Below are positions 1,560 through 22,985 of a stretch of 40,883 bases of DNA, in pieces. Below the pieces are notes generated by a model, which saw only the letters and a program-made list of their open reading frames with translations, ran no database searches and was not told where the DNA came from. The stretch is taken from NCBI GenBank assembly GCA_945873105.1, contig CAMCBW010000047.1, positions 1 to 40,883 of the forward strand, written 5' to 3'. The position numbers and the translations under genes are program-made. This DNA is from Tangfeifania diversioriginum. GTDB taxonomy: Bacteria; Bacteroidota; Bacteroidia; Bacteroidales; Prolixibacteraceae. How positions within the stretch are numbered: position 1 is the stretch's first letter; every line of letters starts with the position of its first letter.

Positions 1560-1567
1560 CCGGAAAG

Positions 1568-2365
1568 ATGGCGAACAGCATTAACGCATTGATCCTCACG
1601 ATTGGTACCCTCCTCAGCTTGGGTGCTGCATGGTCAGGTCCCGCGGACCAGTCCGGAGGTACCTCGCTGACGTTTAAAATTCTCAGCTACAATGTGAGAA
1701 ATGGTGTTGGACTCGACAAAGTCACCGATTATGACAGGGTAGCCAATGTAATCAAACGGATAGAAGCAGATGCCATTGCCATCCAGGAGCTGGACAGTGC
1801 CACCTCCCGTAGCAAGGGTGTGGTGGTTCTGACTCAACTAGCGGCAAAAACCGGCATGCATCCAACCTACAGTGCCTCCATTGACTACCAGGGGGGCAAA
1901 TACGGTGTGGGCATGCTGACGAAGGAGAAACCAGTTTCCTGGAAAAAGATTCAGTTACCAGGAAGAGAGGAGCGGCGAAGTCTGTTGCTGGTAGAGTTAA
2001 AGGAGTATGTGGTCTGTTGCACACACTTCTCCCTGACAGGGGAAGACCGGCTGGCTTCGGTGGATCTGATCAACGAAGCCACCAAAGCCTATGCAAAACC
2101 GGTTCTTTTGGCCGGTGACCTGAATGCGGAGCCAGGAACCGCTGTCACAAAGAAACTGGAGGAGCATTGGACGATGCTTTCCAACCCCAGGGAGATGACC
2201 TTCCCTGCCAACGATCCGGATCGGTGCATCGACTATATCCTGATCCGAAAAAAGGCAAACTACCGGATAGCCTCCCTGGAATCAAAGGTGGAAGCTGAGG
2301 CTGTGGCTTCAGACCACCGGCCCTTGTGGGTGAAAATTACCTTGCAAAAGATCAATAAACCATGA
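1568..2365 (+). CDS. secreted endonuclease/exonuclease/phosphatase-family hydrolase
   Basis: The 265-residue product has a signal peptide (about 1-24) and the EEP (DNase I-like) fold signatures. These are YNVRNG near 42, IQELDS near 76 with the metal-binding Glu, GDLNAEP with Asp184 and Asn186, and the C-terminal SDHRPL with catalytic His250. EEP enzymes cleave phosphodiesters or phosphomonoesters in nucleic acids, phosphoinositides or phospho-sugars. Export and position between two sulfatases suggest a glycan- or lipid-linked phosphate ester rather than DNA repair; this is inference. It starts 8 bases after the upstream stop, and its own stop overlaps the next start in an ATGA junction, so translation is probably coupled. 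Confidence 0.85.
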   Translation: MANSINALILTIGTLLSLGAAWSGPADQSGGTSLTFKILSYNVRNGVGLDKVTDYDRVANVIKRIEADAIAIQELDSATSRSKGVVVLTQLAAKTGMHPTYSASIDYQGGKYGVGMLTKEKPVSWKKIQLPGREERRSLLLVELKEYVVCCTHFSLTGEDRLASVDLINEATKAYAKPVLLAGDLNAEPGTAVTKKLEEHWTMLSNPREMTFPANDPDRCIDYILIRKKANYRIASLESKVEAEAVASDHRPLWVKITLQKINKP

Positions 2366-3840: not shown

Positions 3841-3862
3841 ATTAAAAACCAATTATTATAGC

Positions 3863-5806
3863 ATGAAAATCTTTTTGTCAATTGTTTGTCTGATTTTGAC
3901 CCTGAATGCGATTTCAAAAGAGTACAAGATCGCCTCTCCGAACGGCCAGATTTCCGTATCGGTATTGGTTGACACCCAGTTAAAATGGTCGGCCACTGTC
4001 GACGGGAATCCCATTTTCACCAACAATGCGATGAGCATGGATCTGGGCACAACAGTACTCGGGGTCAATCCCAAAGTCGTTTCTGCCAAGACAACAGCGG
4101 TCAAAGAGGTGGTATCCACGGTAGTGGCCGTAAAATCGAAAAACATTGCCAATGAATACAACCAGATGACCCTTGTATTCAAACCCAACTACAAGGTGAC
4201 CTTCCGCCTGTTTGACAACGGCATCGCCTACCGCTTCGAAACGACCGTGAAAGAAGAGGTAACGGTGAAGAACGAGGTGGTTGACCTGAATTTTACCGGA
4301 GATTATGGAATCCTTTTCCCGGAGGAGGAGACGCTCTACTCCCATTACGAACGGAACTACCTGGATCTGAAAATAAGTACCCTGAAGGCAGGGAGATTTT
4401 GTTCACTACCCACCCTGGTGAAGGCCGACCGCAATGTCAAAATTGGCATCACGGAAGCGGATCTGTTTGATTATCCTTGTCTTTTCATGGAGGCAACGGG
4501 AGCCAATGGTTTTAAGAGCAAATATCCAAAAGTGATCCTGAAATCGACGCCAAAAGGCGACCGAGATATCCAAAACATCCAGGAGGCCGATTACATCGCA
4601 AGGACCAACGGCACCCGGTCATTTCCCTGGAGGGTCTTCATGATCAGCAAGGAGGATGCACGGCTGGTCGAAAACCAGATGGTCTACCTGCTGTCACGGG
4701 AATCCAAACTGGACGAAACCAGCTGGATCAAGCCCGGTCTGGTGGCCTGGGACTGGTGGAACGAAAACAATGTCTACGGAGTTGATTTCAAGGCAGGGCT
4801 GGATACCAGGACTTACAAGTACTACATCGATTTCGCCGCCAAATACAAGATTCCCTACATCATCCTGGATGAGGGCTGGACCAAAAGCACCACCAACATC
4901 AAGGCATCCAATGACAACCTGAATCTGGAAGAGCTGATCGCCTACGGAAAATCAAAAAATGTGGAAATCATCCTGTGGTGTCTCTGGAATGCCCTCGATG
5001 CGGACATGGATGCCATTCTGGATTTGTATGCCAAATGGGGAGCCAAAGGGATCAAGGTCGATTTCATGGCCCGGTCGGAACAGTACATGGTCAACTTTTA
5101 CGAACGCGCCGCCAAAGCGTGTGCAGACCGCAAGCTGCTGATCGACTTCCACGGGGCATTCAAACCCTCCGGGATGGCCAGGGCCTATCCCAATATCATC
5201 AACCATGAGGGGGTAAAAGGGATGGAGAATTGCAAATGGAGCAAGGAAATTACGCCTGAACACGATGTCACACTATGCTTTACCCGCATGCTGGCAGGGC
5301 CGATGGACTACACGCCTGGGGCGATGATCAATAAAAATGCAAAGGACTATTCCATCAGTTTCTCGAATCCCATGAGTCAGGGTACCCGGTGCCACCAGCT
5401 GGCCATGTATGTCTGCTACGATGCCCCCCTGCAGATGTTGTGCGACAGTCCCTCCAATTACCTCAAGGAGAGCGAGAGCACCTCCTTTGTCAGCAAAATG
5501 CCAACCGTTTGGGACAACACCAGGATTTTGGATGCCAAAGCCGGCGACTACATTGTAACAGCCCGCCAGAAGGAGAACAACTGGTACCTCGGTGCAATGA
5601 CAGACTGGAGTGCCCGTACACTCGAAGTAGACCTCTCTTTTCTTGGGGAAGGAAACTATGAAATTGAGATCATGCAGGATGGCATCAATGCAGATGTCAG
5701 CTGCAATGATTACAAACGGGTGGTTCAGCAAGTTACCAAAAACGACAAGTTGAAGGTCAAAATGGCCAAGGGAGGCGGTTGGGCCGCTATTTGCAGGAAA
5801 ATATAA
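3863..5806 (+). CDS. glycoside hydrolase family 97 (alpha-galactosidase/alpha-glucosidase)
   Basis: The 647-residue protein has a signal peptide (about 1-18), the GH97 N-terminal beta-sandwich (about 20-280), a TIM barrel (about 290-560) and a C-terminal beta domain. Barrel marks include WDWWNENN and YIILDEGW near 330. The segment GIKVDFM places Asp400 where retaining GH97 enzymes have their nucleophile, and INHEGVKG gives Glu449 as a candidate general acid. This arrangement resembles the retaining alpha-galactosidase branch (BtGH97b) rather than the inverting SusB branch, which uses Glu bases; that is motif-level inference. It lies 22 bases after the Ser-type sulfatase and ends the operon. 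It probably trims glycosyl residues exposed once sulfate is removed. Confidence 0.93.
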   Translation: MKIFLSIVCLILTLNAISKEYKIASPNGQISVSVLVDTQLKWSATVDGNPIFTNNAMSMDLGTTVLGVNPKVVSAKTTAVKEVVSTVVAVKSKNIANEYNQMTLVFKPNYKVTFRLFDNGIAYRFETTVKEEVTVKNEVVDLNFTGDYGILFPEEETLYSHYERNYLDLKISTLKAGRFCSLPTLVKADRNVKIGITEADLFDYPCLFMEATGANGFKSKYPKVILKSTPKGDRDIQNIQEADYIARTNGTRSFPWRVFMISKEDARLVENQMVYLLSRESKLDETSWIKPGLVAWDWWNENNVYGVDFKAGLDTRTYKYYIDFAAKYKIPYIILDEGWTKSTTNIKASNDNLNLEELIAYGKSKNVEIILWCLWNALDADMDAILDLYAKWGAKGIKVDFMARSEQYMVNFYERAAKACADRKLLIDFHGAFKPSGMARAYPNIINHEGVKGMENCKWSKEITPEHDVTLCFTRMLAGPMDYTPGAMINKNAKDYSISFSNPMSQGTRCHQLAMYVCYDAPLQMLCDSPSNYLKESESTSFVSKMPTVWDNTRILDAKAGDYIVTARQKENNWYLGAMTDWSARTLEVDLSFLGEGNYEIEIMQDGINADVSCNDYKRVVQQVTKNDKLKVKMAKGGGWAAICRKI

Positions 5807-5837
5807 ATTCGGTAGCCTGTTTATAATTTTACGAATT

Positions 5838-5908
5838 GTCACGCAAAGACGCGAAGAACGCAAAGCTTTTTATTTAATATCTTTGCGTTCTTCGCGTCTT
5901 TGCGTGAC
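5838..5908. repeat. perfect 28-bp inverted repeat (hairpin)
   Basis: Arms at 5838-5865 and 5881-5908 are exact reverse complements around a 15-base AT-rich loop. The arm begins GTCACGCAAAGACGCG. It lies just after the GH97 stop and 26 bases before the Dus start, so it may end the sulfatase operon, though no T-tract follows the right arm. It is built like the inverted repeat at 18599-18671, and both contain CACG..AAG-type words. Confidence 0.9.
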
Positions 5909-5934
5909 ATATTGATATTACAAAAAAGTCTCCT

Positions 5935-6924
5935 ATGCCCAATTTCTGGCAACAACTTCCCAAACCTTTCTTCGCCCTCGCACCCATGGAGGATGTGACG
6001 GATACCGTCTTTCGCGAGGTAGTCGCCGGTATGTCCGATCCTCAATTCCTGCAGGTACTCTATACCGAATTTGCCTCTGTCGATGGGCTCAACCATCCGG
6101 TTGGAAAGAAGAATGTGGGTCACAGGTTGCTGGTAAGTGATTCGGAAAGAGCACTGCTGAAGGAGAAAAACATTAAACTGGTAGTTCAAATCTGGGGGAA
6201 GAACCCTGAACTATTTGCGAAAATTGCCAGGGAGATTACGGCAGAGTACGATTGCGACGGCATCGATGTGAACATGGGGTGTCCGGTGAAGAAGGTGGTG
6301 AAGAACGGCTGCTGTTCTGCCCTGATCGACCAGCCGGAGCTGGCTAAGGAGATCATTTTGGCTACCAAGGAGGCGACCCACCTGCCTGTTTCCGTAAAAA
6401 CAAGAACTGGCATCCGTGCCCACGAAACGGAAAGATGGATCACTACCGTGATGGAGACCAAACCGGCAGCAGTGATCTTGCATGGCCGTACCCAGAAGCA
6501 GCAGTCGGACGGACTGGCCGACTGGGACGAAATCGCCAAAGGTGCTGCAGTGAGGAATCTGGTGAGTCCGGATACCGTCTTTATCGGGAATGGCGATGTT
6601 TCCTCCGTGGCACAGGGGATTGAACTGGCAGCAAAACATGGCCTCGATGGGATCATGGTGGGGAGAGGCATCTTCCACAATCCCTGGTTCTTCCTGCCCA
6701 ACCATCCTGCACCAGAAAAAAAGGAGCGGCTTTCCAGGTTACTGTTTCATACCCAACTGTTTGAAAAGACCTGGGGAAGCAAAAAGAGCATCAATATCCT
6801 CAAGCGTTTCTACAAGATTTACACCAGTGAGTTTACCGATGCCTCCAAACTCAGGGTTCAACTGATGGATGCACGGAGTTATGAAGAGATATATAGGATT
6901 CTCCAATACGAGATGGAAAATTAG
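5935..6924 (+). CDS. dus: tRNA-dihydrouridine synthase
   Basis: This 329-residue FMN enzyme reduces uridine to dihydrouridine in tRNA D-loops. The TIM-barrel signatures are clear. ALAPMEDVTD near 15 is the FMN-binding start, and DVNMGCPVKKV near 113 carries the catalytic Cys region. SVKTRTGI near 155, ILHGRTQKQ near 180, and the phosphate-binding GNGDV and GIMVGRGIFHNP near 215-245 complete the site. It is a housekeeping gene set apart from the preceding secreted-enzyme operon by the 28-bp inverted repeat. Length is typical. Whether it is the DusA, DusB or DusC type cannot be settled by eye. It ends with two consecutive TAG codons. Confidence 0.94.
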   Translation: MPNFWQQLPKPFFALAPMEDVTDTVFREVVAGMSDPQFLQVLYTEFASVDGLNHPVGKKNVGHRLLVSDSERALLKEKNIKLVVQIWGKNPELFAKIAREITAEYDCDGIDVNMGCPVKKVVKNGCCSALIDQPELAKEIILATKEATHLPVSVKTRTGIRAHETERWITTVMETKPAAVILHGRTQKQQSDGLADWDEIAKGAAVRNLVSPDTVFIGNGDVSSVAQGIELAAKHGLDGIMVGRGIFHNPWFFLPNHPAPEKKERLSRLLFHTQLFEKTWGSKKSINILKRFYKIYTSEFTDASKLRVQLMDARSYEEIYRILQYEMEN

Positions 6925-7436
6925 TAGAAATCATTAAAATTGATCGTCAGCAGTTGATTATAACAGTTTTCTACTTATGCAAGGCTGTTGGATCGAATCC
7001 AAATGGAGCTGTTTGGTTCGTTGTTCTGATAAAGATTTATAAAACCTTATTTTTATGAGGCAACCTTAGTAGAAACAGATAGTCAAGAGATTACCTCAAC
7101 CTTATTACCTTATTTGGAGAATTCAATTTACCTGATTTGTTTATTCCGCCCGAGCCCGGGATGCTGGCTACAAGCAGAATTACTACGCGGGCGTGTGTAA
7201 CGTATCATTCCGTTTTCTCTACTAAGGTTGATTGAGAAAATAAGGTTTTCCAACCCGAAAATTTCCACTTATCTGGTAAAGGCAGATTTTGATATGAATA
7301 TTCTATCTTTGAAAAAAGAACAACGCATTCAAAAACTTTACGATATGAAATGAGCATGATCACACAATCACCAATCGGAATGATTATAACCGACATGCGA
7401 ATTCCATTTGGCAATTAAAAAACAAAATAGATACAA
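6925..7436. other. 512-base intergenic gap with an isolated GC-rich patch
   Basis: No credible gene is seen. The gap is AT-rich except for about 55 bases at 7147-7201 (CCGCCCGAGCCCGGG onward). One + frame through the patch reads ARDAGYKQNYYAGV before losing sense, so it may be a remnant of a lost gene or mobile element; I do not recognise it. The right part contains the promoter of the following dehydrogenase. Confidence 0.5.
7304..7311 (+). promoter_or_regulatory. Bacteroidota -7 promoter element
   Basis: TATCTTTG matches TAnnTTTG exactly. No TTTG lies at the usual 19-21 base spacing; the nearest is at 7288-7291. If used, transcription would start near 7316 and leave a leader of about 120 bases for the dehydrogenase-sulfatase pair. 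Confidence 0.5.
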
Positions 7437-8474
7437 ATGAAAGCAATGGCATTGACCGGAATACGGCAGATTGAGATGGTAGAACTTCCCACACCCAAAA
7501 TTGTGGAAGCTACCGATGTACTTATCAGGATGAAGGTGGTCGGCGTTTGCGGCTCGGATGTTCACTACTATACCAATGGAAAGATCGGTAGCCAGGTAGT
7601 TAAGTATCCCTTCCCGGTAGGGCATGAAGGTGCCGGTGAAGTGGTGGCAGTTGGTTCGGCGGTCACCCGTGTCAAACCGGGCGACAGGATCGCCATCGAA
7701 CCCGCGATGCCATGTGGCGTGTGCGACCAGTGCAAAGTTGGCCGGCCACATACCTGCCGCAAATTGAGGTTTCTTGGTTGCCCCGACCAGGCCGATGGCT
7801 GCCTTGCAGAATACATCGTGATGCCGGGAGAGAGCTGTTTCCCTGTGGCAGATCACCTCAGTTATACGGAAGCCGCCATCAGCGAACCGTTGGCCATTGG
7901 ACTCTATGCCGTCAATCAATCCATCCCGCTGAAAGGGGCCACGATTGGGATTCTTGGTTTTGGCCCTATCGGGATGAGTGTTCTCCTGGCCGCCAAAGCC
8001 AAGGGAGGGGCGAATTTTTATGTTACTGACCTGGTTCCCGAACGACTCCAGCTTGCCAGGGAGTGTGGGGCGGTCTATACCGGAAGTCCTGAAAAAACGG
8101 ATGTGGTGGCTGAAGTAAAGGCGAAAGAACCTCTGCTGCTGGATGTTGTCTTCGAATGCTGCGGCAGGCAGGAGGCGATCGACCAGGCCGTCGAGATGCT
8201 CAAGCCGGGAGGTAAACTCATGGTAATCGGCATTCCTGAATTCAGCCGCTGGAGTTTCCCTGTCGACCAGAGCAGACACAAGGAGTTGTGCATCCAAAAC
8301 GTCAGGCGTCAGAACCACTCCCTGGAAGAGACCCTCGAACTGATGGAGAGCGGCAAGATCGATGTCGGCAAGATGCACACCCACCGTTTCCCCTTCTCCC
8401 AAACCAAGGAGGCATTTGATCTCGTAACGGGTTATAAAGATGGAGTGATGAAGGCAATGGTAGATTTTGACTGA
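7437..8474 (+). CDS. zinc-dependent polyol/sorbitol-type dehydrogenase
   Basis: The 345-residue protein is a medium-chain dehydrogenase/reductase that oxidises a sugar alcohol or sugar hydroxyl with NAD(P). Catalytic zinc ligands are Cys38 (VCGSDVHY) and the His63-Glu64 pair in GHEGAGEV. The structural-zinc cysteines Cys93, Cys96, Cys99 and Cys107 are all present. The Rossmann motif GILGFGPIG lies near 170. SDVHYY and the length favour the L-iditol/xylitol dehydrogenase group, which is a family-level judgement. It has its own promoter-like element upstream. A sulfatase starts 8 bases after its stop, so it probably processes a sugar or polyol released by that sulfatase. Confidence 0.9.
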   Translation: MKAMALTGIRQIEMVELPTPKIVEATDVLIRMKVVGVCGSDVHYYTNGKIGSQVVKYPFPVGHEGAGEVVAVGSAVTRVKPGDRIAIEPAMPCGVCDQCKVGRPHTCRKLRFLGCPDQADGCLAEYIVMPGESCFPVADHLSYTEAAISEPLAIGLYAVNQSIPLKGATIGILGFGPIGMSVLLAAKAKGGANFYVTDLVPERLQLARECGAVYTGSPEKTDVVAEVKAKEPLLLDVVFECCGRQEAIDQAVEMLKPGGKLMVIGIPEFSRWSFPVDQSRHKELCIQNVRRQNHSLEETLELMESGKIDVGKMHTHRFPFSQTKEAFDLVTGYKDGVMKAMVDFD

Positions 8475-8482
8475 TACATCCC

Positions 8483-9931
8483 ATGAAAACAATAGCTGCA
8501 CTATTTCTATCCCTGGCGGCCTTCCATGGGTTGGTTGCCAATGCCAAACAAAGGCCCTCTCCCAACCTGGTTTTTGTATTTCCGGATGAGATGCGGGCCC
8601 AGGCGATGGGGTTTTTGGGAGAGGAGAAAGTTCAGACCCCAGTGCTCGACCGTTTCGTAAAAGAGAGCGTCTACTTCTCCAATGCGGTAAGCAACTACCC
8701 GGTATGCTCGCCTACCCGTGCCATGATCTTCAGCGGGCAATATCCGGTTAAGAACAGGGTGATAGGAAATTGTACCAGCGTTTCGGCACAGTTCGGATGC
8801 GAATTGCCTGCGGAGACCCGCTGCTGGTCGGATGTGTTGAAGGAGAAGGGTTATTCACTGGGTTACATCGGTAAATGGCACCTCGACTCCCCCCATGCAC
8901 CGTTTGTCAATACCAGCAACAACGCTGGGAATGTCAAATGGAACGAATGGACTCCACCCTCACGCCGCCATGGATTCGACTATTGGCATGCCTATGGCAC
9001 CTATGATCAACATCTTCGCCCCATGTACTGGGATACGGATGCCCCTCGCGACAGCTTTCAATATTACGATGAATGGGGACCCGAACACGAAGCAGACAGG
9101 GCGATCGATTTCATTAGGAATAAAAACGGGAAACTCCGTAAAAGCGGACAGCCATTTGCCCTGGTGGTCTCCATGAATCCGCCCCACATGGATTACAAGG
9201 CGGTTCCCCAGAAATACAAGGATCTTTACAAGGATCTGCCCATTGAATCGCTGATCAACAAGCCCAGTATCGATGCTGTCGGAACCAAATGGGGCGATCA
9301 CTACCGGAAGAGTGTCAAGGATTATTACGCAGGGATTAGCGGAGTGGACGAGCAGTTTGGCAGGATCCTGAAGGTTTTGGAAGAGGACGGACTGGCAGGG
9401 AATACCCTGGTGGTCTTCACCTCCGACCACGGGGATTGCATGGGCATTCATGGAGAGATTACCAAAAATAACTTGTATGAAGAATCGATGCGGGTTCCCT
9501 TGCTGATCCGGTTTCCCGGCAGGTTGAAACCACATACCGCCGACCTGTTGCTTTCTACTCCGGATCTCTACCCCACCCTGCTGGGATTGATGGGATTTGC
9601 CACCGCGATACCCGAAACAACAGATGGAGAGAACTTTGCCGGTTACCTCATGACCGGGAAGGGAAGGAAACCGGCCTCCCAATGGTACATGAGAATTTCG
9701 GACGGGAATCCGGCCGGGGGATTGCGCGGTGTCAGGACCGACCGGTATACCTTTGTCATTGATCAGGGCAAAGAAAACCAACAGAAGGTGATGCTCTTTG
9801 ACCGCCAAAATGATCCGTATCAATTGAAAAACATCGCGGGGGAAAGCCCTGAACTGGCCAAGGAGTTGACCACCCAACTCAGGGAGTGGCTGATGAAATA
9901 CCAGGATCCCTGGCTAAAGAATATGCCGTAG
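8483..9931 (+). CDS. secreted S1-family sulfatase (Cys-type)
   Basis: The third sulfatase of the window has 482 residues with a signal peptide (about 1-22). Its motif is CSPTR with Cys75 as the formylglycine precursor, the canonical C-x-P-x-R form. The metal-binding start is LVFVFPDEMRAQAMG, with Glu in place of the second Asp of the usual DD pair. GKWHLDSPH near 132 and TSDHGDCMGIHG near 313 form the rest of the site. The layout resembles uncharacterised polysaccharide sulfatases near the iduronate-2-sulfatase group. It is translated directly after the polyol dehydrogenase and ends against a convergent TonB receptor gene with a short hairpin between them. Confidence 0.92.
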   Translation: MKTIAALFLSLAAFHGLVANAKQRPSPNLVFVFPDEMRAQAMGFLGEEKVQTPVLDRFVKESVYFSNAVSNYPVCSPTRAMIFSGQYPVKNRVIGNCTSVSAQFGCELPAETRCWSDVLKEKGYSLGYIGKWHLDSPHAPFVNTSNNAGNVKWNEWTPPSRRHGFDYWHAYGTYDQHLRPMYWDTDAPRDSFQYYDEWGPEHEADRAIDFIRNKNGKLRKSGQPFALVVSMNPPHMDYKAVPQKYKDLYKDLPIESLINKPSIDAVGTKWGDHYRKSVKDYYAGISGVDEQFGRILKVLEEDGLAGNTLVVFTSDHGDCMGIHGEITKNNLYEESMRVPLLIRFPGRLKPHTADLLLSTPDLYPTLLGLMGFATAIPETTDGENFAGYLMTGKGRKPASQWYMRISDGNPAGGLRGVRTDRYTFVIDQGKENQQKVMLFDRQNDPYQLKNIAGESPELAKELTTQLREWLMKYQDPWLKNMP

Positions 9932-12832: not shown

Positions 12833-14467
12833 TCACCTCCGACCCAAACTCATGTTCCTGAATGCCGAAATATCGATCAGCCCATTGGTGTCGTTGTCAA
12901 AGGTGATCTGGATACTGTCGCCTGCCATGGTCACCGGCATTTCGTTCGAGATCTGGGATGAGCCGATAAAGATGTTGTTCATTCCGGCTACGGTGAAATA
13001 GTAGAAACTGTTGCCATTTTTGGTATCCGACTGGATACGGTTGACCACCGTCTTCAGCAGCATCTTATTGGTCACATTTTTGGGATTGATTTTATTACCA
13101 GCCATGTTGTAGGCATTCTTGTAAGCCATCAAGGTCTCCACCAGCGTATTGCCCACACCAACAATCGTATAGTCCTCGATGGCTACCATGGCAAACATTT
13201 TCACCAGTCCACCGTTGTCCTTGAGCGTCATCATATAGGTTGGAATGTTGTTGATGTTGTAGGGGATGGGGAGTGAAGAGGTGTAACGCTTCTCCTGTAC
13301 CTTGCCTACGGCCGAATTTTCGGCGGCAAACTCCGTAGCTCCGCTTTGCTTGTACCAGACTGCTTTTTTGGTCCGTGTATCGATCAAGACAAAACCAACC
13401 GTAGCTTCATCGGCTCCTACAGAGGTAAGGCCAGTATACCAATATGACCTATTGTCCTCGCCGTAAACCAGCGAGAGCTTCTGTGTGATCTGCAGTTTAT
13501 TTTCGTTGGAGAAATTCCAGAATCCTTTGACAAAATTGCCCCAGTCGTTGAGCTGCTCCGCTACAAATTGATCGGGCTGAATCCGGTCAATCCATACAGG
13601 TGCCTCATCAATGGAGTATTCTGTGCATTTCCCGGTCTCTGTATTGACGACCACTACCCCAACCGCATCGTCCCCATAGAAGCCAATCTTCTTTTTGTAT
13701 TTGGTAATCACCCAGTAGGGATTGCCCTCGTCGTCAATTTCAAAAGAATAATCGGTTAAACCAGTGTTGTAGAAACCACTGAAGTAGAGGTGCCTTTCCA
13801 AATAGTCGCCGAAGAAGGCCTCCGGCTGGTATTTGATGATGGCCTTTTTCCCGTTGATCTCCTGTACCAGTTTGACATCCCTTTCGTTGCAAGCGTTGAC
13901 CATGACATAACCATTGGTTCCCTCACTGTTTTTGTTCCATTTGAAGAAGCCCGAATGAAGCAATGGCGCTACCCAATAGAGATCATTTTTTACTTTTTGA
14001 ATGTGGAAAGTACCCAACCGTACCTGGCTTCCCAGTGCAGGTTGTGCCCCCAGGACTTTGTCACCCAATAGGTTGGCGAGCGGCTCATCAACCACCCTGA
14101 TCTTCTCGATCGAGATGGGCGCCATATGGGTAGAGAGGTTCTCCCCGATCTCCACCGTGCCGATCAATTCCCTGTAATCGCTCCACCTGAACAAGGACCA
14201 GGAGAGAACGGCAGGTACAACCGTCATGTAGCACAGCAAAGCGATAAAGATCCATTTTGGAACTGCCATGCTCGTCAGCATCTTCAATGCCTGCATCTCA
14301 TTGGTCACCTGGGGGACCATGCGGAGATTTAGGATGACCCAAATCAAAGTCAATGCTCCGATCAGGACTGGAAAACCCGGAAATCCAAAGGCTAAAACCG
14401 GCATCTGGGTATAAATGGCGATCAGAGCTACGATAAGCAGGATGGATATTTGATTGATTCTTTTCAT
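12833..14467 (-). CDS. large membrane-anchored protein with PepSY-like extracytoplasmic segments
   Basis: The 544-residue protein has three predicted membrane helices near residues 7-25, 31-48 and 71-92, followed by a long soluble region of about 450 residues. In that region phrases such as NPYWVITKYKK followed by GVVVVNTETGKCTEY, and again TVGFVLIDTRTKKAVWYKQ, recall the strand pattern of PepSY-type repeats. I cannot name a function. A homologous group of long hypothetical membrane proteins seems likely. It is transcribed alone, away from the convergent small metal-type gene's promoter region, with 270 AT-rich bases separating it from the divergent ATPase. Confidence 0.75.
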   Translation of the reverse strand: MKRINQISILLIVALIAIYTQMPVLAFGFPGFPVLIGALTLIWVILNLRMVPQVTNEMQALKMLTSMAVPKWIFIALLCYMTVVPAVLSWSLFRWSDYRELIGTVEIGENLSTHMAPISIEKIRVVDEPLANLLGDKVLGAQPALGSQVRLGTFHIQKVKNDLYWVAPLLHSGFFKWNKNSEGTNGYVMVNACNERDVKLVQEINGKKAIIKYQPEAFFGDYLERHLYFSGFYNTGLTDYSFEIDDEGNPYWVITKYKKKIGFYGDDAVGVVVVNTETGKCTEYSIDEAPVWIDRIQPDQFVAEQLNDWGNFVKGFWNFSNENKLQITQKLSLVYGEDNRSYWYTGLTSVGADEATVGFVLIDTRTKKAVWYKQSGATEFAAENSAVGKVQEKRYTSSLPIPYNINNIPTYMMTLKDNGGLVKMFAMVAIEDYTIVGVGNTLVETLMAYKNAYNMAGNKINPKNVTNKMLLKTVVNRIQSDTKNGNSFYYFTVAGMNNIFIGSSQISNEMPVTMAGDSIQITFDNDTNGLIDISAFRNMSLGRR

Positions 14468-16092: not shown

Positions 16093-17580
16093 TTATCCCA
16101 GCATCATCTTGCTGATGTAGATATCCTGAAAATCGGGGAAGCCTTCGAGATTCACATGGCTGGTTTTGGTAAGTATTTCGGCAGCCAGCTCCCCTTTGCC
16201 AAACAGAAACATCTTGGCTCCGATCAGGGCGGTATTTCCCATTTTGTGCAATTTATCCTCCGTCGTCTCTACCATTCCAGTCGAAAGGAGATGTTCGGTA
16301 TGGATGTAATTGCCAAACCCTCCGGCAATGTAAACCTTCGAGATCGCTGAAGGATCAATGGACAGGTTTCTTGCCAGGATAGTAATGCCGGCGGCAATGG
16401 CAGCCTTGGCCAGCAGAAACTCATAAATATCTTTTTGGGTCAGGTGGATGGATCCTTCAATCTGCAGGCTATCGGCCCCCGAACTGATCTCGCCGAACAT
16501 TCCAATCAATTCCTGTTTCTGAAGGAGAGCTACCGCATCGATCAGGGCACTGCCACAAATGCCTTTGGGTTCAGTATTCCCGATCACAGAAGAAACCATC
16601 TTGTTGTCTGCCAATCGGATAGAGGAGATAGCCCCGGTAACCGCCCGCATCCCCATCGAGAGGTTGGCCCCCTCGAAGGCCGGACCGGCTGCGGTGGAGG
16701 CACAAATGATCCGATCCCTGTTGCCAACAACAATTTCCCCGTTGGTTCCCAGATCGATCAAAGCGGTAAATTCTTCCTTTTGGTGGAGGCCAGTTGCAGC
16801 GATCCCTGCCAGGATATCACTGCCCACAAAACTTCCTATCGATGGATAAAACTGGACAAGGGTACTTTCGGGCACCTCCCAGTCAAGTTCCGACGCTGAA
16901 AAATTCTGCATTCCAATGTCATCTGTTTGAAAAGGATAACAGGATAGCGGAGTCAGATCCAGGTCGCTGAAAATCCGCTGCATCAACGTGTTTCCGACCA
17001 ATACCACCTTACCAGGAAGTTGTTGGCTACTTTTCAGCATCGACTGAATCATCCGCCCAATGGTTGATCTGATCAGTTGTGTCATTTCTGCTGCATGTCC
17101 ATCCAGTCCAGCCTGGATACGGGAGATCAGGTCTGCGCCAAATTTCACCTGCGGATTGAGGAGGGTCTCCACTGCAAGGATAGCGGCTGTTTTCAAATCT
17201 ACCAGCTGTGTAACAATGGTCGTAGTTCCGAGATCTACAGCTATGCCAACGCCGCTTTCTGCTACAAATTCAAAACTGGACTCGTCGGCCAGGATCAGGT
17301 GATCGAACTGTTCGACCTGTAGGGTGATGGAGGAGGTGCAACGGCTCATGCAGGCCAACCGTCGGTCGGCGGGAAGACGAAGCACCTCCAGTTTCTGCCG
17401 GTGCCGCTCCGAGACATCAATTACACCCTGCAGCAATTGAATCTGGCATTTGCCGCAGCTCCCCTTTCCGCCACAAGGAAACTCCACTCCGTATTCGTGG
17501 AGCAGGTCAATCAGGGGTGTCTGGTCGTTAACGATCAGCTCCTTGCCGAGGGGATGCAGACGGATGGTATGTTGCTTCAT
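16093..17580 (-). CDS. corrinoid-protein reductive activator (2Fe-2S + ASKHA ATPase, RACo/DUF4445 type)
   Basis: The 495-residue protein uses ATP to drive electrons onto inactive Co(II) corrinoid and so reactivates methyltransferases. An N-terminal plant-type 2Fe-2S domain has Cys36, Cys42, Cys45 and Cys77. The C-terminal actin-like (ASKHA) domain shows VDLGTTTIVTQLVDL near 118, DLGTNGEIVVGN near 275, AGPAFEGANLSMGMRAV and IAGGFGNYIH near 440. It is shorter than the roughly 630-residue RACo of acetogens, with a reduced linker region, and it lacks the C-terminal 4Fe-4S cluster of archaeal RamA. It is the last gene of the methyl-transfer locus, separated from the CobW gene by a short hairpin stretch. 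Confidence 0.9.
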   Translation of the reverse strand: MKQHTIRLHPLGKELIVNDQTPLIDLLHEYGVEFPCGGKGSCGKCQIQLLQGVIDVSERHRQKLEVLRLPADRRLACMSRCTSSITLQVEQFDHLILADESSFEFVAESGVGIAVDLGTTTIVTQLVDLKTAAILAVETLLNPQVKFGADLISRIQAGLDGHAAEMTQLIRSTIGRMIQSMLKSSQQLPGKVVLVGNTLMQRIFSDLDLTPLSCYPFQTDDIGMQNFSASELDWEVPESTLVQFYPSIGSFVGSDILAGIAATGLHQKEEFTALIDLGTNGEIVVGNRDRIICASTAAGPAFEGANLSMGMRAVTGAISSIRLADNKMVSSVIGNTEPKGICGSALIDAVALLQKQELIGMFGEISSGADSLQIEGSIHLTQKDIYEFLLAKAAIAAGITILARNLSIDPSAISKVYIAGGFGNYIHTEHLLSTGMVETTEDKLHKMGNTALIGAKMFLFGKGELAAEILTKTSHVNLEGFPDFQDIYISKMMLG

Positions 17581-17590
17581 AATTTCTTAA

Positions 17591-17655
17591 CCACGAAGGG
17601 CACTAAGGATCACACAAAGGACACCAGGTGATGAGAAAAGGGCTGCTTCACCTGG
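17591..17655. repeat. degenerate CACGAAGG-type repeat and adjoining hairpin
   Basis: CCACGAAGGGCACTAAGG at 17591-17608 resembles the left arm of the inverted repeat at 18599-18671. It is followed by an 8-bp stem, CCAGGTGA (17624-17631) with TCACCTGG (17648-17655). It fills the gap between the CobW and activator genes. Confidence 0.65.
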
Positions 17656-17663
17656 CTGTTTGC

Positions 17664-18581
17664 TTAATAAATACTTTCTATCTTAGATCTAAATAACTGA
17701 CTATCAAATCCAACCACTGCATCATAAATAACGACCAACTCATTTTCCGTTCCATAGCTACAACGCTCTGTGGTAGTTCCCGACAAGGTATAATTGAAAA
17801 GCAGCCACTCATTTCCTGCATAAATATAACCTTTTGCCCTAACAATAGATGGCTCCTGACTCAGAAGTTGGGAAAGCATTGCAGGTTCGACAAACTTGTC
17901 TTCCGGAAGTTTTAAACTTAACACTTTGTAATTTTCTTTTCCTTCTGTTTCAGCCATGTAAAATCCCGGGGATGAAATGTGCTGATTCTGAGGGGAAACT
18001 TTGTCATGCCCCCAAAAAAGATCCTCATTTTCATCCCTGGTGACATAAAGCTTACCAGGAAAGTCAGCGGCGAACTGCTCCTTCAAATCGCGGAGTTCCT
18101 CCGCTCTCAACAATTCTGTTTTGGTGAACATCACCCGATCGGATTTTAAAATTTGGGCCTTGAAAATCGGTAGCATCCGTAACCGGGGATGTTTGGTCAT
18201 GGCAATGTCGACCAGACAGACGACTGGCATGAGCTGAAGTTCAGGATACTGCCCAACCAGTTCTGTAATGTGGTCAATTCCTCCGAGCCCGCTTGGTTCG
18301 ATCAGGATGCGGTGGTACCGGTTTTCCCGGACTATTTTATCCAGGTTCTCGCCGAAATAGGCTTTGGCCGAACAGCAGATGCACCCGCCAACTATTTCAT
18401 AAAGGGAACCCCCTGCGGATTTTGATTGAAGGGTCGCTCCGTCAATGGAGATTTTACCGAATTCGTTGATGACGATGGCCCAATGCTCCTGGGGCGGTTT
18501 CCTGTCGAGTAGCTGCAGCATCAGGGTGGTTTTTCCTGCCCCCAGGAATCCTGAAATAATATGCACCGGGATTTTTTTCAT
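17664..18581 (-). CDS. CobW/COG0523-family GTPase (metallochaperone)
   Basis: The start at 18581 is chosen because it begins MKKIPVHIISGFLGAGK; the longer frame to 18602 runs into a repeat arm. The 305-residue product has Walker A GFLGAGKTT at 11-19, the metal-binding CxCC motif (Cys67, Cys69, Cys70 in GGCICCSAK), and LIEPSGLGG near 88. COG0523 proteins use GTP to insert metals such as zinc or cobalt into client enzymes. The C-terminal domain is shortened but present. Lying between MtaB and the activator, it plausibly supplies zinc to the two zinc methyltransferases of the locus, although a corrinoid-related role cannot be excluded. Confidence 0.88.
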   Translation of the reverse strand: MKKIPVHIISGFLGAGKTTLMLQLLDRKPPQEHWAIVINEFGKISIDGATLQSKSAGGSLYEIVGGCICCSAKAYFGENLDKIVRENRYHRILIEPSGLGGIDHITELVGQYPELQLMPVVCLVDIAMTKHPRLRMLPIFKAQILKSDRVMFTKTELLRAEELRDLKEQFAADFPGKLYVTRDENEDLFWGHDKVSPQNQHISSPGFYMAETEGKENYKVLSLKLPEDKFVEPAMLSQLLSQEPSIVRAKGYIYAGNEWLLFNYTLSGTTTERCSYGTENELVVIYDAVVGFDSQLFRSKIESIY

Positions 18582-18598
18582 TGCCAGATAGTTTCCTG

Positions 18599-18671
18599 CC
18601 ACGAAGGCACCAAGTCACTAAGGTATTACTTAGAAGCTTTGTAATACCTTAGTGTCTTGGTGTCTTTGTGG
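18599..18671. repeat. 31-bp near-perfect inverted repeat (hairpin)
   Basis: Arms at 18599-18629 and 18641-18671 surround an 11-base loop. The left arm begins CCACGAAGGCACCAAGTCAC. It lies between the mtaB stop and the CobW start, where it could stabilise or attenuate the downstream part of the transcript. It belongs with the inverted repeat at 5838-5908 as a dispersed intergenic palindrome type. Confidence 0.88.
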
Positions 18672-18682
18672 CATTTTCTCAC

Positions 18683-20059
18683 TTATAATCCATATTCCCC
18701 CAAAATAAACTTACCAGGATCCATCACCGGAAGCATCATCGCAATAAAATCGCTCTCGCTGTCGGGGATGCTGTTCAGATCATCCCGGAACATCGGGAGA
18801 TAGGCTGTTTCCATCTCAGTAAGCTTTAGCTGCCCTGCCTGGTGTGCCTCTTCGATGATATCGAGGGCTGCGAGTGCGCCATTGCGGGCATTGGCCACAT
18901 AGGAGTCACCTTTTATCAGTTCCTTTGAAATCCGAATCACATTTTCAGGCGCTAGGATCAAAGCCTGCGGATCGGTGTAGATATCGGATCCGACCAGCAG
19001 TTGCTGCAATACCTGGCAGTGCATCTTCCCCATGCGGAGTGCCTCATTCATCAGGCGGGCATCGTATTCCAGCTGTTCGAGGTAAGCCGTCGGAGCCATC
19101 CCCGACAGGAGTTTGATGTTCTGCACCGATTCGTTGCTCCAAAGATCGGCACAAGCCGAGGCGATATTCCCGATAGGGCTCAGATGGGCACAAGCTGCCG
19201 TTTTTCCCTCCATCGATATGGGAATGCCGGTAATCGCCTTTAAGAAAGGTCCTTCGTAACCGCAATCCTTGTCTGGACCAACGGCTCCCTCCTCCATGGC
19301 CACGATGGAGCGAACCACCGAGATGACCCTGACCAGGGAGGCAAATACTTTTGGAATGTATTTTTTCTCTGCCAGTACCATCGCGGTGTTGGCAAATCCG
19401 CAGGCCGAATCACCCGCGGCAATTTTGCCCTGCTTGTTGGCAAGTGCAACAATCTTGTGCCAGAGAAATTGCATGTCCCGAACACCCAATACCGAGAGGG
19501 CGAACATCACTCCTTTGAGGTCACACATCATCAGCGCGTCGTCAGAAACCTCCTTACCACCGGTACTTTCGATCGATAGCAGATCACCACCCGCCATCAT
19601 ACCCCGTTCGAACAACTCCATCATTGGCTCGAGGTAGGCAGAGCTGCGTTGTCTGGCCGGCCGTTCGAATTCGCGCAGGTCGTTGGGAGTCAGACGGATT
19701 TCGGAAGCCAAACCATGTTGCTGGTAGTACCTTTCACAAACCTCGTTCATGATCTTCACGATCTCGACCCCAATATCCGGCGTTTTGGTCATCTCCAGGA
19801 GGGTTTCAAATTCCAGGACTACTCCTTTCGAATTCAGGTGAAGTGCACGTTCGAGTGCCCCCTCAGCGATTTCACGGTAGTGGGCATAGACCTCTCCCAG
19901 GGTATGCTGGTTGATGCTCATCATGGGCAGGGTGAAATTGAGTTCTGCATAGACCTGGCCGCCACCGATCACCAATCCCCGACGGGTGGTAACCGGTTTC
20001 GGGGAACGACCAAACATCAGTTCCGACGGCTCAAGGATTGTTAAACTTTTGTACTTCAT
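18683..20059 (-). CDS. mtaB: methanol:corrinoid methyltransferase MtaB-like
   Basis: The 458-residue product is by pattern an MtaB, which moves the methyl group of methanol to the Co(I) corrinoid of MtaC. Family text is strong throughout: GLVIGGGQVYAELNFTLP near 28, LLSIESTGGKEV, AAGDSACGFANTAM, GPDKDCGYEG, ITGIPISMEGKTAACAH and DLWSNESVQ. The three zinc ligands known from Methanosarcina barkeri MtaB are retained as Glu164, Cys220 and Cys266. The start at 20059 is preferred: the longer frame to 20125 would overlap the upstream gene, and the chosen start gives ligand numbering that matches the archaeal enzyme. No in-frame amber is present, as expected for MtaB. The substrate could also be another small methyl donor. 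Confidence 0.9.
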   Translation of the reverse strand: MKYKSLTILEPSELMFGRSPKPVTTRRGLVIGGGQVYAELNFTLPMMSINQHTLGEVYAHYREIAEGALERALHLNSKGVVLEFETLLEMTKTPDIGVEIVKIMNEVCERYYQQHGLASEIRLTPNDLREFERPARQRSSAYLEPMMELFERGMMAGGDLLSIESTGGKEVSDDALMMCDLKGVMFALSVLGVRDMQFLWHKIVALANKQGKIAAGDSACGFANTAMVLAEKKYIPKVFASLVRVISVVRSIVAMEEGAVGPDKDCGYEGPFLKAITGIPISMEGKTAACAHLSPIGNIASACADLWSNESVQNIKLLSGMAPTAYLEQLEYDARLMNEALRMGKMHCQVLQQLLVGSDIYTDPQALILAPENVIRISKELIKGDSYVANARNGALAALDIIEEAHQAGQLKLTEMETAYLPMFRDDLNSIPDSESDFIAMMLPVMDPGKFILGEYGL

Positions 20060-20093
20060 AGTCTGTAGGTTAATGATGGGATTGAAATGGATG

Positions 20094-21119
20094 CTACATG
20101 ATTTCCTGCAATAATTTCGCCTCATTGTACTCCTTCAAGGCTTCAAAAAATGCGGCAATATTTTCGGCAGGGACATGCGGTGGCATATCACAGCCGGAGG
20201 AGAGGACGAAATTGTCAAAGCCGGCAGTTCTGTTGAGCAGATCCGCAATGTAGGACTTTACTTCAGCGGCTGAAAGTGACTTCAGGACACCTACTGGGTC
20301 CACATTCCCCAGGATCAGTTTATCATTCGGACAAGCTTCCAGGGCTTCCACCATATCGATGGCATTGCCAAAATGGTAGGCATTGGCTCCTGTCGACAAC
20401 ATGGCCTTGGTACAGTGTCCGGTGTTGCCGCAATTGTGAAGAATGACCAGAAAACTATCGTCCTGCAATGCATCGACCATCTTTTTGATGTAAGCGGAGG
20501 AGAATTCGCTGCAATCATCGTTGGAGAGCAAACCAGCAGCAGGTTCCGCAACCACAACTCCTGAGCAGCCGATCCGCTTTAACTCGGCACAATAGTTGGT
20601 AATTAATTGGTTACATTTATCGATCAGGCAATGAATCGCCTTCGGTTCCGTGTAGCAGGCCACCATGATCTCGGACATATCGTAGAGCCTTCCCGCCAGG
20701 GAGAAAGGACCTATGACACCGGCAAATACCGGTTTGTTGTGGGTCATTTCCACGGTAAGCCGGTTGGCTTTGAGGTATTCGGGTATTCTTCCCGCGGTCA
20801 GATCCGGAACCTGAAGTGCTTCGATCTCCTCTTCGCTACCGACCAGTCTTCCCTTCAGGTGTGGCATTTCGTCCTCCTGAAATTCTATTGGAACGCCAAA
20901 TGCTTCTGCCTCCAGGGTCAGATCCATGATAACGGTGGTGGCAGCTGTGGGATAGACCTCGTTGAGTTTTCGGATTGCCTGGGCATGTACCGCCCCATCC
21001 TGCACCGCCTCCTTCACACTCCGGCCGATCAGCTCAATCCCGGGATGGGTCATAATGGGAAGGGCAATCCTTTCAGGATGGCTGATTTGATCAGTTACCC
21101 AATCGTGGATGTTTATCAT
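20094..21119 (-). CDS. UroD-family methylcorrinoid methyltransferase (MtaA-like)
   Basis: The 341-residue protein belongs to the uroporphyrinogen-decarboxylase superfamily. It carries the zinc motif of methyltransferases rather than the decarboxylase site: His228-x-Cys230 in ILHNCGNT and Cys310 in SSGCDMPP. Such enzymes (MtaA, MtbA, CmuA C-terminus) take the methyl group from a corrinoid protein and pass it to a thiol or pterin acceptor. In methanogens the acceptor is coenzyme M; in a bacterium tetrahydrofolate or another thiol is more likely, which is inference. It is encoded 34 bases upstream of mtaB and 143 bases after the corrinoid protein gene. Heme biosynthesis is unlikely given this context. 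Confidence 0.88.
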   Translation of the reverse strand: MINIHDWVTDQISHPERIALPIMTHPGIELIGRSVKEAVQDGAVHAQAIRKLNEVYPTAATTVIMDLTLEAEAFGVPIEFQEDEMPHLKGRLVGSEEEIEALQVPDLTAGRIPEYLKANRLTVEMTHNKPVFAGVIGPFSLAGRLYDMSEIMVACYTEPKAIHCLIDKCNQLITNYCAELKRIGCSGVVVAEPAAGLLSNDDCSEFSSAYIKKMVDALQDDSFLVILHNCGNTGHCTKAMLSTGANAYHFGNAIDMVEALEACPNDKLILGNVDPVGVLKSLSAAEVKSYIADLLNRTAGFDNFVLSSGCDMPPHVPAENIAAFFEALKEYNEAKLLQEIM

Positions 21120-21262
21120 GAATAGAATTATTATGTGTCTAATATTTAATTAATTAAGCCTATAATTCCTGCTATAAATATGGCACAAGGAGTCTCCTGC
21201 CCTGAAACAAGGGCTTTTGCAATAGAAGATAAAATAGGAAAACTAGGTCGGAGAACTTAAGA

Positions 21263-21931
21263 TTAAGATGCCAGCTTGTTCAGGTATTCAACTGCCTGCT
21301 GTGGATCCGGGGCATAAAAATCTGCCCCAATGCTCCTGCAGAAATCGGCATTGACTGGTGCGCCGCCAACCAGAACCTTGGTATCTGGAACAATTGCCTT
21401 GACACTTGCTACAATCTCTCCCATATTTACCATGGTGGTGGTAAGCAGGGCGGACAATCCAACCACTGCACCCGGATTATTTTTCAAGGCTTCGACAAAA
21501 CGGTCTGAACCAACATCCACGCCAAGGTCAACGATGGTCCAGCCACCACCTTCCACCATCATGGCGACCAGGTTTTTGCCGATGTCGTGGAGGTCACCTT
21601 TCACAGTACCGATGATAAATGTCCCTTTGGATTTGATCGCACCGGATGCAAAAAATGGTTTCAATTGCACCATGGAAGCACCCATTGCCTTGGCCGACAT
21701 GAGCATCTGTGGTACGAATATTTTATTTTCAGAGAATTTCTTGCCAACATTTCCCATGGCCGGAATAAGGGCATCTTCGAGAATTCGCTGTGGATCGATA
21801 TTCGCTTCAAGGGCTTGCTGGGTCAGTTCGTGCGCGCCATCCATCCCCCGCAATTGAGGCGGATAGGGTGATTTCTGATCAATTTTCCCCATTTCAACGG
21901 CTTCCAAAAGTTTTGCGATTAGCTCACTCAT
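21263..21931 (-). CDS. mtaC: methanol-type corrinoid protein (MtaC-like)
   Basis: This 222-residue protein is the cobamide-carrying shuttle of the locus. An N-terminal four-helix cap (about 1-95) includes IPAMGNVGKKFSENKIFVPQM. The Rossmann-like B12 domain follows, with the DxHxxG motif GDLHDIGKN. His115 would be the lower cobalt ligand. VGLSALLTTTM near 157 and LVGGAPVN near 187 bind the nucleotide tail. It is the first gene of the minus-strand locus, which fits a high need for the carrier. Distinguishing MtaC from MttC or MtbC by sequence alone is not secure; the adjoining MtaB is what supports the methanol assignment. Confidence 0.9.
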   Translation of the reverse strand: MSELIAKLLEAVEMGKIDQKSPYPPQLRGMDGAHELTQQALEANIDPQRILEDALIPAMGNVGKKFSENKIFVPQMLMSAKAMGASMVQLKPFFASGAIKSKGTFIIGTVKGDLHDIGKNLVAMMVEGGGWTIVDLGVDVGSDRFVEALKNNPGAVVGLSALLTTTMVNMGEIVASVKAIVPDTKVLVGGAPVNADFCRSIGADFYAPDPQQAVEYLNKLAS

Positions 21932-22052
21932 AATAATATTGTTTAGTCTATGGTTTGAAAAGCGATTAATTCACTAAGATACAATTTCCTGGCAACTATT
22001 CGCCAAGAAGATCAAAACAAAAATAGTCTACTTGTAACCAAATAGCTACGCC

Positions 22053-22103
22053 AATATTTACTACTTTTGGTGCAATATTCACAATATTTACATTTTTTGT
22101 GCA
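22053..22103. promoter_or_regulatory. pair of direct repeats, candidate AraC operator
   Basis: AATATTTACTACTTTTGGTGCA (22053-22074) and AATATTTACATTTTTTGTGCA (22083-22103) start 30 bases apart, close to three helical turns. They lie just before the AraC start and within the intergenic region shared with the methyl-transfer locus. Tandem sites of this spacing are typical for AraC-type regulators. Confidence 0.6.
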
Positions 22104-22115
22104 TTATTAACCACC

Positions 22116-22985
22116 ATGTCTGCCAAGTACGAACAGATCTGCTTGCGTGAGGATGAATCTTTCTTCACCGGAATTTTTCAAGACAATCTTGAAAAAAGCA
22201 GTTGGCATTACCACAACAATTATGAAATCAGCTTTATCACCGAAGGAACCGGCAAACGTATTGTAGCGGATTCCATCGAAGAGTTTCAACCCGGTGACCT
22301 GGTTTTCATCGGGAGCAACCTTCCACATGTATGGATTGCAGAGAAGGAGCAACGGCTCTTTTCAGGTCGTACCCTGGAAATGGTCTTCCTGCAATTCTCT
22401 GCCAATATTCTGTTTCCACAACTACTTTCACTGCCCGAATTCAGGTATGTCAAAAAGGCGCTGGAGCTATCCGAGAGAGGGATTCAAATCGTCGGTCAGA
22501 CTTTGAATGAGGTAAGTGAGATCATGTTGCAATTACCTTACCTGAAAGGCTTCGACCGGATCAACCATTTCTACCGGCTGATGGACATCATTGGGAAAAG
22601 TGATACAAACATTCCGTTGGCCAGTGAAGAGTACCTGCGGAAGCGGTTCACCCCTGCAAACCGGCGGATCGCCCTGCTCAACGACTATTTGATGACCCAC
22701 TACCGTGAGGAGATTGACCTGAAAAAGCTGGCAGAGCTGGTCAGCATGGCGGAAGGTTCCTTGTGCCGCTTCTTTAAAATGCATGTTGGCACCTCCATCT
22801 TTGATTACCTCAACCAGATCAAGGTGGAGTTTGCCTGTAAACTGCTGATGGACCAGGAGCTGACCATTGTGGATGCATGCCTGGACAGCGGATTCAACAA
22901 CTTGAGCCATTTCAACAAGCAGTTCAGGAAGAACACGGGAGTGACCCCCACGGAGTACCGGAAGAGGTTCAGGGGGTTGATTTAA
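22116..22985 (+). CDS. AraC-family transcriptional regulator
   Basis: The 289-residue protein has an N-terminal cupin-like sensory domain (about 20-120; WHYHNNYEISFITEG, FQPGDLVFIGSNLPHVW) and a C-terminal pair of helix-turn-helix motifs (about 190-285). The second helix pair ends with the family signature DSGFNNLSHFNKQFRKNTG followed by TPTEYRKRF. It is divergently transcribed from the corrinoid methyltransferase genes, with direct repeats in the shared region, so it probably controls them and itself. The inducing ligand is not evident; related cupin-AraC regulators in this phylum often sense sugars, so the link to C1 compounds is by position only. Confidence 0.92.
   Translation: MSAKYEQICLREDESFFTGIFQDNLEKSSWHYHNNYEISFITEGTGKRIVADSIEEFQPGDLVFIGSNLPHVWIAEKEQRLFSGRTLEMVFLQFSANILFPQLLSLPEFRYVKKALELSERGIQIVGQTLNEVSEIMLQLPYLKGFDRINHFYRLMDIIGKSDTNIPLASEEYLRKRFTPANRRIALLNDYLMTHYREEIDLKKLAELVSMAEGSLCRFFKMHVGTSIFDYLNQIKVEFACKLLMDQELTIVDACLDSGFNNLSHFNKQFRKNTGVTPTEYRKRFRGLI

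Follow-up and report, generated by a model that had tools for sequence, protein, structure and literature searches.

Corrinoid-dependent use of methanol is known as an energy route into methane or acetate, and its genes in a bacterium whose genome yielded neither formyl-tetrahydrofolate synthetase (FTHFS) nor CdhC/acetyl-CoA synthase (ACS) raise the question of where the methyl group goes. The genes lie on contig CAMCBW010000047.1 of Tangfeifania diversioriginum (GCA_945873105.1), all 40,883 nucleotides of which were analysed and are here called the window; this is the entire contig C47 of a 5.36-Mb genome (G000), for which completeness is given as 100% and contamination as 2.93%. On the minus strand, from 21931 down to 16093, the window encodes an MtaC-like corrinoid protein, a uroporphyrinogen decarboxylase (URO-D)-family methyltransferase, an MtaB-family methyltransferase, a CobW-type GTPase and a RACo/Ram-type reductive activase. 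The system is real and conserved, and represents a variation on the three-component corrinoid methyltransferases already known. In some relatives its first step is genetically tied to homocysteine methylation, and its most likely overall reaction, which we propose with about even confidence, is methanol + homocysteine → methionine + water. Homocysteine itself we regard, with moderate confidence, as the best acceptor candidate.

Linkage of MtaB and MtaC to homocysteine methyltransferase genes

The link to homocysteine comes from gene order in relatives, surveyed in named genomes through the best 80 of 530 MtaB matches, ranked by likeness to the window. In two loci MtaB and MtaC stand directly with a stand-alone homocysteine S-methyltransferase (HcyMT; PF02574) and a MetH-activation-like protein (PF02965-like), the order being MtaB–MtaC–HcyMT–PF02965-like in L073 and HcyMT–MtaC–MtaB–PF02965-like in L097, with Pfam scores of 240 and 234 bits for PF02574 and 33 and 45 bits for PF02965. 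Locus L248 (genome G784) keeps a 98-residue MtaB remnant followed by MtaC, HcyMT and the PF02965-like protein, and in L067 the MtaC–HcyMT–PF02965-like set lies on the opposite strand to MtaB, some kilobases off. The PF02965-like protein is found in 19 of the 80 named loci. T. diversioriginum carries its own HcyMT outside the window (G000:C44:36969-37799), directly followed by a PF02965-like gene that was recognised with a home-made profile, members of which match Pfam PF02965 in other genomes.

Among 20 MtaB-bearing genomes (T. diversioriginum and 19 relatives), 16 have a stand-alone HcyMT, the profile of which separates cleanly from MetH (at least 423 bits versus at most 154). A PF02965-like gene is adjacent or one gene removed in 12 of the 16 HcyMT loci read, and an MtaC-like gene lies within the HcyMT gene run in three of them. 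Across 393 genomes sampled from the order to which T. diversioriginum belongs, MtaB occurs in 17 (two of these being a remnant or a weak match), stand-alone HcyMT in 33 and both in 11, so that HcyMT is present in 11 of 17 MtaB genomes versus 22 of 376 others (Fisher p 2e-9). With T. diversioriginum left out the count is 10 of 16 (Fisher p 2e-8), and nine of the 12 families with MtaB also have HcyMT (p about 5e-8, assuming 116 families as read off the labels and considering lineage to family level only). These counts come from two 393-genome scans, taken to be the same sample from their equal size and handles, in one of which up to six candidates per genome were scored.

Three traits of a split methionine synthase, namely a stand-alone PF02574 protein, a separate corrinoid protein and a separate reactivation protein, are found here, and for modules of this sort the split systems of Phaeobacter and Ruegeria are a clear precedent. 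In Phaeobacter a DUF4445/Ram-like protein is reported to be important for methionine synthesis by the split MetH (PMC5764234), while in Ruegeria the split methionine synthase and glycine betaine demethylation are described as using one corrinoid protein (PMC12478193). The marine alphaproteobacterial split methionine synthase/MtgBCDE resembles our system in its separate PF02574 protein, corrinoid protein and DUF4445/Ram-like activase and in tying the methyl group of a demethylated compound to methionine synthesis; it differs in that its PF00809 subunit is essential and its donor is glycine betaine (through MtgB), whereas the window system has no PF00809 subunit and an MtaB donor module (PMC5764234, PMC12478193). 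Folate-independent methylation of homocysteine, predicted to draw on a corrinoid protein, is likewise described for MesA, MesB and MesC; these resemble MetE and are predicted to receive the methyl group from MtrA or CoFeSP, whereas here PF02574 or URO-D enzymes would be fed by MtaC (PMC7857596). Type 1 mlp clusters share with our system His-Cys-Cys URO-D proteins, a corrinoid protein, Ram and the lack of a tetrahydrofolate (THF) methyltransferase; they carry Mlp2 and Mlp3 together, with no MtaB described among their components, whereas the window operon has one URO-D gene plus MtaB (PMC10418091). A search of the open-access PMC literature returned no title on MtaB as a donor module for homocysteine.

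Six further loci (L172 and L215, L216, L217, L218 and L219) contain clusters of one or more URO-D proteins with HcyMT, mostly with a PF02965-like protein, and no MtaB in the stretch read; a CobW-like protein is present in three of them. These clusters appear to be additional split methionine synthases that draw on different methyl donors.

A proposed methyl-transfer scheme

From these patterns we infer donor, acceptor and direction as follows. MtaB, with its Glu, Cys, Cys zinc site, would bind methanol, or a small methyl donor much like it, and methylate Co(I) of the MtaC-like protein, and the methyl group would then pass to a zinc-bound thiolate through the operon's URO-D protein, the stand-alone HcyMT at G000:C44, or both. 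Homocysteine would be the likeliest thiol, which is what yields the net reaction given above and would make the system a split methionine synthase with its folate module replaced by MtaB. Inactive Co(II) would be restored by the RACo/Ram protein, using ATP and its 2Fe-2S cluster, together with the PF02965-like protein at C44; the CobW-type GTPase would supply zinc, and a divergently encoded AraC protein would switch the operon.

More broadly, and tentatively, anaerobic Bacteroidota may carry methanol-fed, split MetH-like methionine synthases in which MtaB stands in for the folate module and the methyl group, for example from pectin methanol, bypasses folate; in the window's version Ram and URO-D would be encoded in cis, with the homocysteine unit supplied in trans. 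If this is true, methanol would serve, in habitats without oxygen, as an assimilatory methyl source for methionine and S-adenosylmethionine. Labelling such genes as methylotrophic would then exaggerate the part of energy metabolism, and the MetH, MtgBCDE and MtaB systems would amount to modules that can be exchanged for one another.

Operon organisation and conservation

The five minus-strand genes are separated by 143, 34, 80 and 83 bases (the second counted to an internal methionine of MtaB), and their shared strand and short gaps suggest a single operon. Pfam scores lie well over the cut-offs (525 bits versus 25 for MtaB), so chance matches are not at issue. Conservation was assessed in the MtaB clade to which the window belongs, across its 40 named loci, some of which end at contig edges, limiting counts in cis: MtaC is found no more than 3 kb from MtaB in 30, a divergent AraC gene (at least 55% match) within 4 kb in 26, CobW (at least 35%) within 3 kb in 17, Ram (at least 60%) within 5 kb in 16, and a URO-D orthologue is in cis in six.

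The original prediction described a complete MtaABC-type module, and all five features that it named (corrinoid protein, MtaB, UroD-family methyltransferase, 2Fe-2S/ASKHA activator and divergent AraC gene) are present, while the GTPase gene between mtaB and the activase had been overlooked. The three components and the activase bear out that description in part; orthology to MtaABC is supported neither by the curated models nor by the MtaB tree. Like the methanogen enzymes (M. barkeri 2i2x, M. mazei 4ay7), the window system combines a PF12176 first methyltransferase (MT1) having a Glu-Cys-Cys zinc site with a DxHxxG corrinoid protein, a URO-D-family second methyltransferase (MT2) having His-Cys-Cys, and a Ram-type activase. 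Unlike them, it has an MtaB of another clade, all three proteins miss the curated cut-offs, its MT2 orthologue is missing from most related loci and its genome lacks ComA.

MtaB and the corrinoid protein

MtaB (18683–20125, minus strand; PF12176) reads as 480 residues from its longest start and 458 from an internal methionine, Met23, at 20059, which is the likely start, as the longer version shares 32 bases with the URO-D gene. Its zinc ligands in long-start numbering, E186, C242 and C288, are exactly the residues predicted as 164, 220 and 266 when counted from the internal methionine. It matches M. barkeri MtaB (2i2x_A) with an E value of 2e-85 over most of its length at 37% identity, and scores 411 of the 720 bits set as the cut-off of the MtaB equivalog model. 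In an alignment of 98 MtaB rows all three ligands are invariant (98 of 98), as are 60 columns with M. barkeri included, and 25 columns (one of them a terminal gap) are specific to the large MtaB clade, some adjoining the ligands; with invariant ligands and clade-specific neighbours, the catalytic core has been retained, and perhaps, though not necessarily, the substrate pocket as well. We propose that this protein is a methanol:corrinoid methyltransferase.

In the 98-row tree, M. barkeri MtaB, the sole characterised member, and a protein from genome G426 are the only distant rows, and both split from the other 96 with 100/100 support on long branches. The window protein belongs to a clade of 45 rows that comprises 40 named Bacteroidota, the window and four others of the same order; rows titled as Bacteroidota number 58 in the whole tree. 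The window MtaB does not cluster with a family of another known substrate, the outcome that the original prediction named as refuting it, but no such family is in the tree; its clade is separate from M. barkeri MtaB. The gene is rare, occurring in five of 395 genomes of a phylum sample, yet not unique to T. diversioriginum: carriers include strains titled Draconibacterium aestuarii, Sunxiuqinia indica and Labilibacter sediminis. The first of these has MtaC, MtaB and CobW genes together with an HcyMT cluster, and a stand-alone HcyMT was looked for and not found in the other two. A plasmid collection contained no MtaB relative.

The G426 protein (locus L261, G426:C25) represents a second type of MtaB within this order; it shares 49% identity with M. 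barkeri MtaB and lies in a gene run MtaC–MtaB–Ram-like–DUF1638; DUF1638 is also reported to be important alongside the split MetH of Phaeobacter (PMC5764234). MtaB and MtaC adjoin a longer URO-D protein of 382–388 residues in two distant members of the phylum sample (L015 and L018).

The corrinoid protein (21263–21931, minus strand; 222 residues; PF02310 and PF02607) is the first gene of the operon and would act as the methyl carrier. It contains the expected GDLHDIG from residue 112, an instance of DxHxxG with the lower-ligand histidine at His115. Its best solved relative is 1y80 (E 3e-48), an entry named as a predicted cobalamin-binding protein, which we take to be the methanol-induced corrinoid protein of Moorella. 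Two MtaC equivalog models give 109 of 450 and 105 of 420 bits, below their cut-offs.

URO-D protein

The URO-D-family protein (20094–21119, minus strand; PF01208, 191 bits; 341 residues) carries the HxC...C pattern noted originally, as H228-x-C230 and C310. It scores 129 bits on the MtaA/CmuA subfamily model (cut-off 235) and reaches 109 of 400 bits on the MtaA equivalog model. The solved fold nearest to its structure model (pLDDT 93.6) is 4ay7, the M. mazei methylcobalamin:coenzyme M (CoM) methyltransferase (TM 0.86, 21% identity), followed by uroporphyrinogen decarboxylases. Two uroporphyrinogen decarboxylases outscore 4ay7 in a single-sequence search, while a profile of seven orthologues places 4ay7 narrowly first (E 1.8e-15 versus 2.5e-15 for 3cyv), and the alignment pairs H228, C230 and C310 with HxC...C in 4ay7, a match that 3cyv does not give. 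His-Cys-Cys is described as marking S- and Se-methyltransferases within the URO-D superfamily, O-methyltransferases having carboxylates or other residues where cysteine would be (PMC10418091). The ligand set and nearest modelled fold fit a thiol as methyl acceptor, the kind favoured here and one of the two options originally raised, and we propose that the operon's URO-D protein is a methyl-corrinoid:thiol methyltransferase, MtaA-like in kind.

Three other roles for this gene were considered and rejected. It is not HemE, since the genome has a better HemE-type match (335 versus 191 bits), which sits beside HemN-like and HemL-like genes named by eye. Nor is it the operon's universal MT2, given the six of 40 clade loci with a cis orthologue; a trans orthologue (480 bits, in a second cluster, of corrinoid protein–URO-D–PF02965-like) was found in one of 19 relatives lacking the cis copy, the others reaching at most 133 bits. 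That URO-D and HcyMT replace each other is contradicted by T. diversioriginum and five of the six relatives with a cis URO-D gene, which have both, and by three relatives that have neither.

Several observations concern the wider family. The T. diversioriginum genome has 16 URO-D matches in total, among them one on C77 without the His-Cys-Cys pattern. In the contexts of L019, L020 and L022, several URO-D genes stand beside glycoside-hydrolase-like and oxidoreductase-like genes, as judged by eye. Four URO-D proteins (L170:3024-4409, L070:9579-10949, L065:12470-13825 and L216:7071-8690) are extended at the C terminus, by a thioredoxin-like part in L170 and L070, and have the first zinc histidine replaced (F-x-C for H-x-C).

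Weighing the donor and the acceptor

A number of observations weigh against homocysteine as the acceptor or methanol as the donor. HcyMT is present in only five of the 80 named loci and does not adjoin MtaB in three of those five (L045, L067 and L104), and the window operon contains no methionine or sulfur gene. A MetH-type protein (PF02574 plus PF00809) is encoded in all 20 MtaB genomes, broken in one, so the corrinoid system is not needed for methionine synthesis. Four of the 20 have no stand-alone HcyMT, and in G402, G409 and G410, which lack both HcyMT and a URO-D orthologue, the acceptor is unexplained. Many stand-alone HcyMT genes sit with URO-D proteins and no MtaB, so that co-occurrence of MtaB and HcyMT may be a lineage habit, arising from shared lineage or ecology. 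The top NCBIfam model for the corrinoid protein is the glycine-betaine protein MtgC (188 of 370 bits, below cut-off), which outscores the MtaC models, and the distance of MtaB from its M. barkeri counterpart, with clade-specific changes by the ligands, means that the donor may not be methanol. That bacteria possess mtaB genes and express them in peat has been reported previously (PMC10805028).

The donor could instead be another small O-methyl compound, such as a sugar bearing an O-methyl group or something released when glycans are degraded, with chemistry and thiol acceptor unchanged, a reading that we consider unlikely though worth weighing. It draws on the separate MtaB clade and its residues adjoining the ligands, on the cupin-type AraC protein and the GntR- or LacI-like regulators of some relatives, on the sugar kinase, rhamnosidase, sulfatase and additional URO-D genes that certain relatives have close to MtaB, and on the three sulfatases and GH97 enzyme of the window itself. 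Bacteroidia are rich in sugar genes anyway, which lessens the force of such neighbourhoods, and the zinc ligands and 60 columns shared by all MtaB rows, M. barkeri included, speak against this reading. Neighbouring families are also diverse: in a scan of 81 of the 121 listed neighbours of MtaB, no clear partner family emerged apart from the commonest, URO-D, itself in seven of the 81, which is weak counter-evidence. Literature searches on O-methyl sugars and corrinoid demethylation found nothing fitting.

Were MtaB and MtaC to hand the methyl group of methanol on to THF, with the URO-D protein or some unrecognised enzyme making the transfer, methyl-THF could be oxidised by MetF and the carbon would enter serine, glycine and purines. 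Like the acetogen methanol:THF systems of Moorella and Acetobacterium, the window has an MtaB/MtaC pair in a bacterium and a corrinoid protein nearest in the Protein Data Bank to 1y80, presumably of Moorella origin; MetF is encoded, as it is in 11 of 14 control genomes. The MtaA of acetogens is of the Pterin_bind type. The bacterial systems described in two accounts use THF (PMC13391211, PMC10418091), and Moorella MtaA, which passes the methyl group to THF, is reported as a protein of 29.7 kDa (PMC13391211), smaller than the window's URO-D-family MT2, the site of which is of the thiol type. In all 20 genomes PF00809 matches exactly two proteins, one FolP-sized (286–329 residues) and one MetH-sized (1093–1247 residues; 488 in one), so that no free-standing Pterin_bind enzyme is left to methylate THF; MtrH-type methyltransferases (PF02007) were not part of this search. 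With neither FTHFS nor ACS in the T. diversioriginum genome, THF, the other acceptor proposed originally, is disfavoured and this route improbable. Of the one-carbon and CoM genes originally suggested for a search, MetF was found and FTHFS and ComA were not.

Transfer to a different thiol, whether sulfide, methanethiol or an external CoM-like thiol, or to selenide as in type 1 mlp clusters, seems to us quite improbable. His-Cys-Cys URO-D relatives do act on CoM (4ay7) and on selenide (PMC10418091), and the three operon-bearing relatives without HcyMT or a URO-D orthologue would be accommodated. ComA (PF02679), the one CoM-synthesis gene sought, is absent from T. diversioriginum, agreeing with the original view that CoM is not expected here, and from seven of eight relatives, leaving it in one of the nine genomes searched; the operon has no selenium or sulfur genes and a single URO-D gene, where type 1 clusters have two or three. 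The one relative with a ComA-family protein (283 bits), Sunxiuqinia indica (L137, G402:C11), carries the operon; PF02679 also matches in Bacillus subtilis, so this protein is no proof of CoM.

GTPase, activase and regulator

The CobW/COG0523 G3E GTPase (17664–18602, minus strand; PF02492, 114 bits; 312 residues) is flanked by mtaB and the activase gene, with which it is co-oriented, and has GFLGAGKT at 18 and GCICC at 73. In its CxCC motif and its place beside corrinoid methyltransferase genes it matches the G3E proteins of COG0523 subfamily 13. Similarly placed COG0523 genes adjoining mtaA and mtaB in Methanosarcina are published (PMC2770081), and by analogy with this co-localisation we propose that the GTPase may insert zinc into both zinc methyltransferases.

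The activase (16093–17580, minus strand; 495 residues; PF14574, PF17651 and PF00111) combines an N-terminal 2Fe-2S domain with an ASKHA ATPase, as predicted, Fer2, Raco_middle (140 bits) and RACo_C_ter (201 bits) all being present. It matches 3zyy with an E value of 9e-66 and misses the AcsV cut-off, at 301 of 800 bits.

The divergent AraC-family gene was located at 22116–22985 on the plus strand and encodes a protein with a cupin-type sensor domain (PF12833, PF07883). In the 184-bp intergenic region (21932–22115) each strand has one box that we take to resemble the Bacteroidota-type -7 element. An Rfam search of the window found no element.

Other genes of the window

The sulfatase and GH97 glycosidase genes are co-directional and lie at 108–9931, as a glycan-degradation set. 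At 12833–14467 on the minus strand the window encodes a 544-residue protein with no Pfam or NCBIfam match, and a 544-residue protein that looks similar by eye occurs near the module in L027, L028, L029, L063 and L088.

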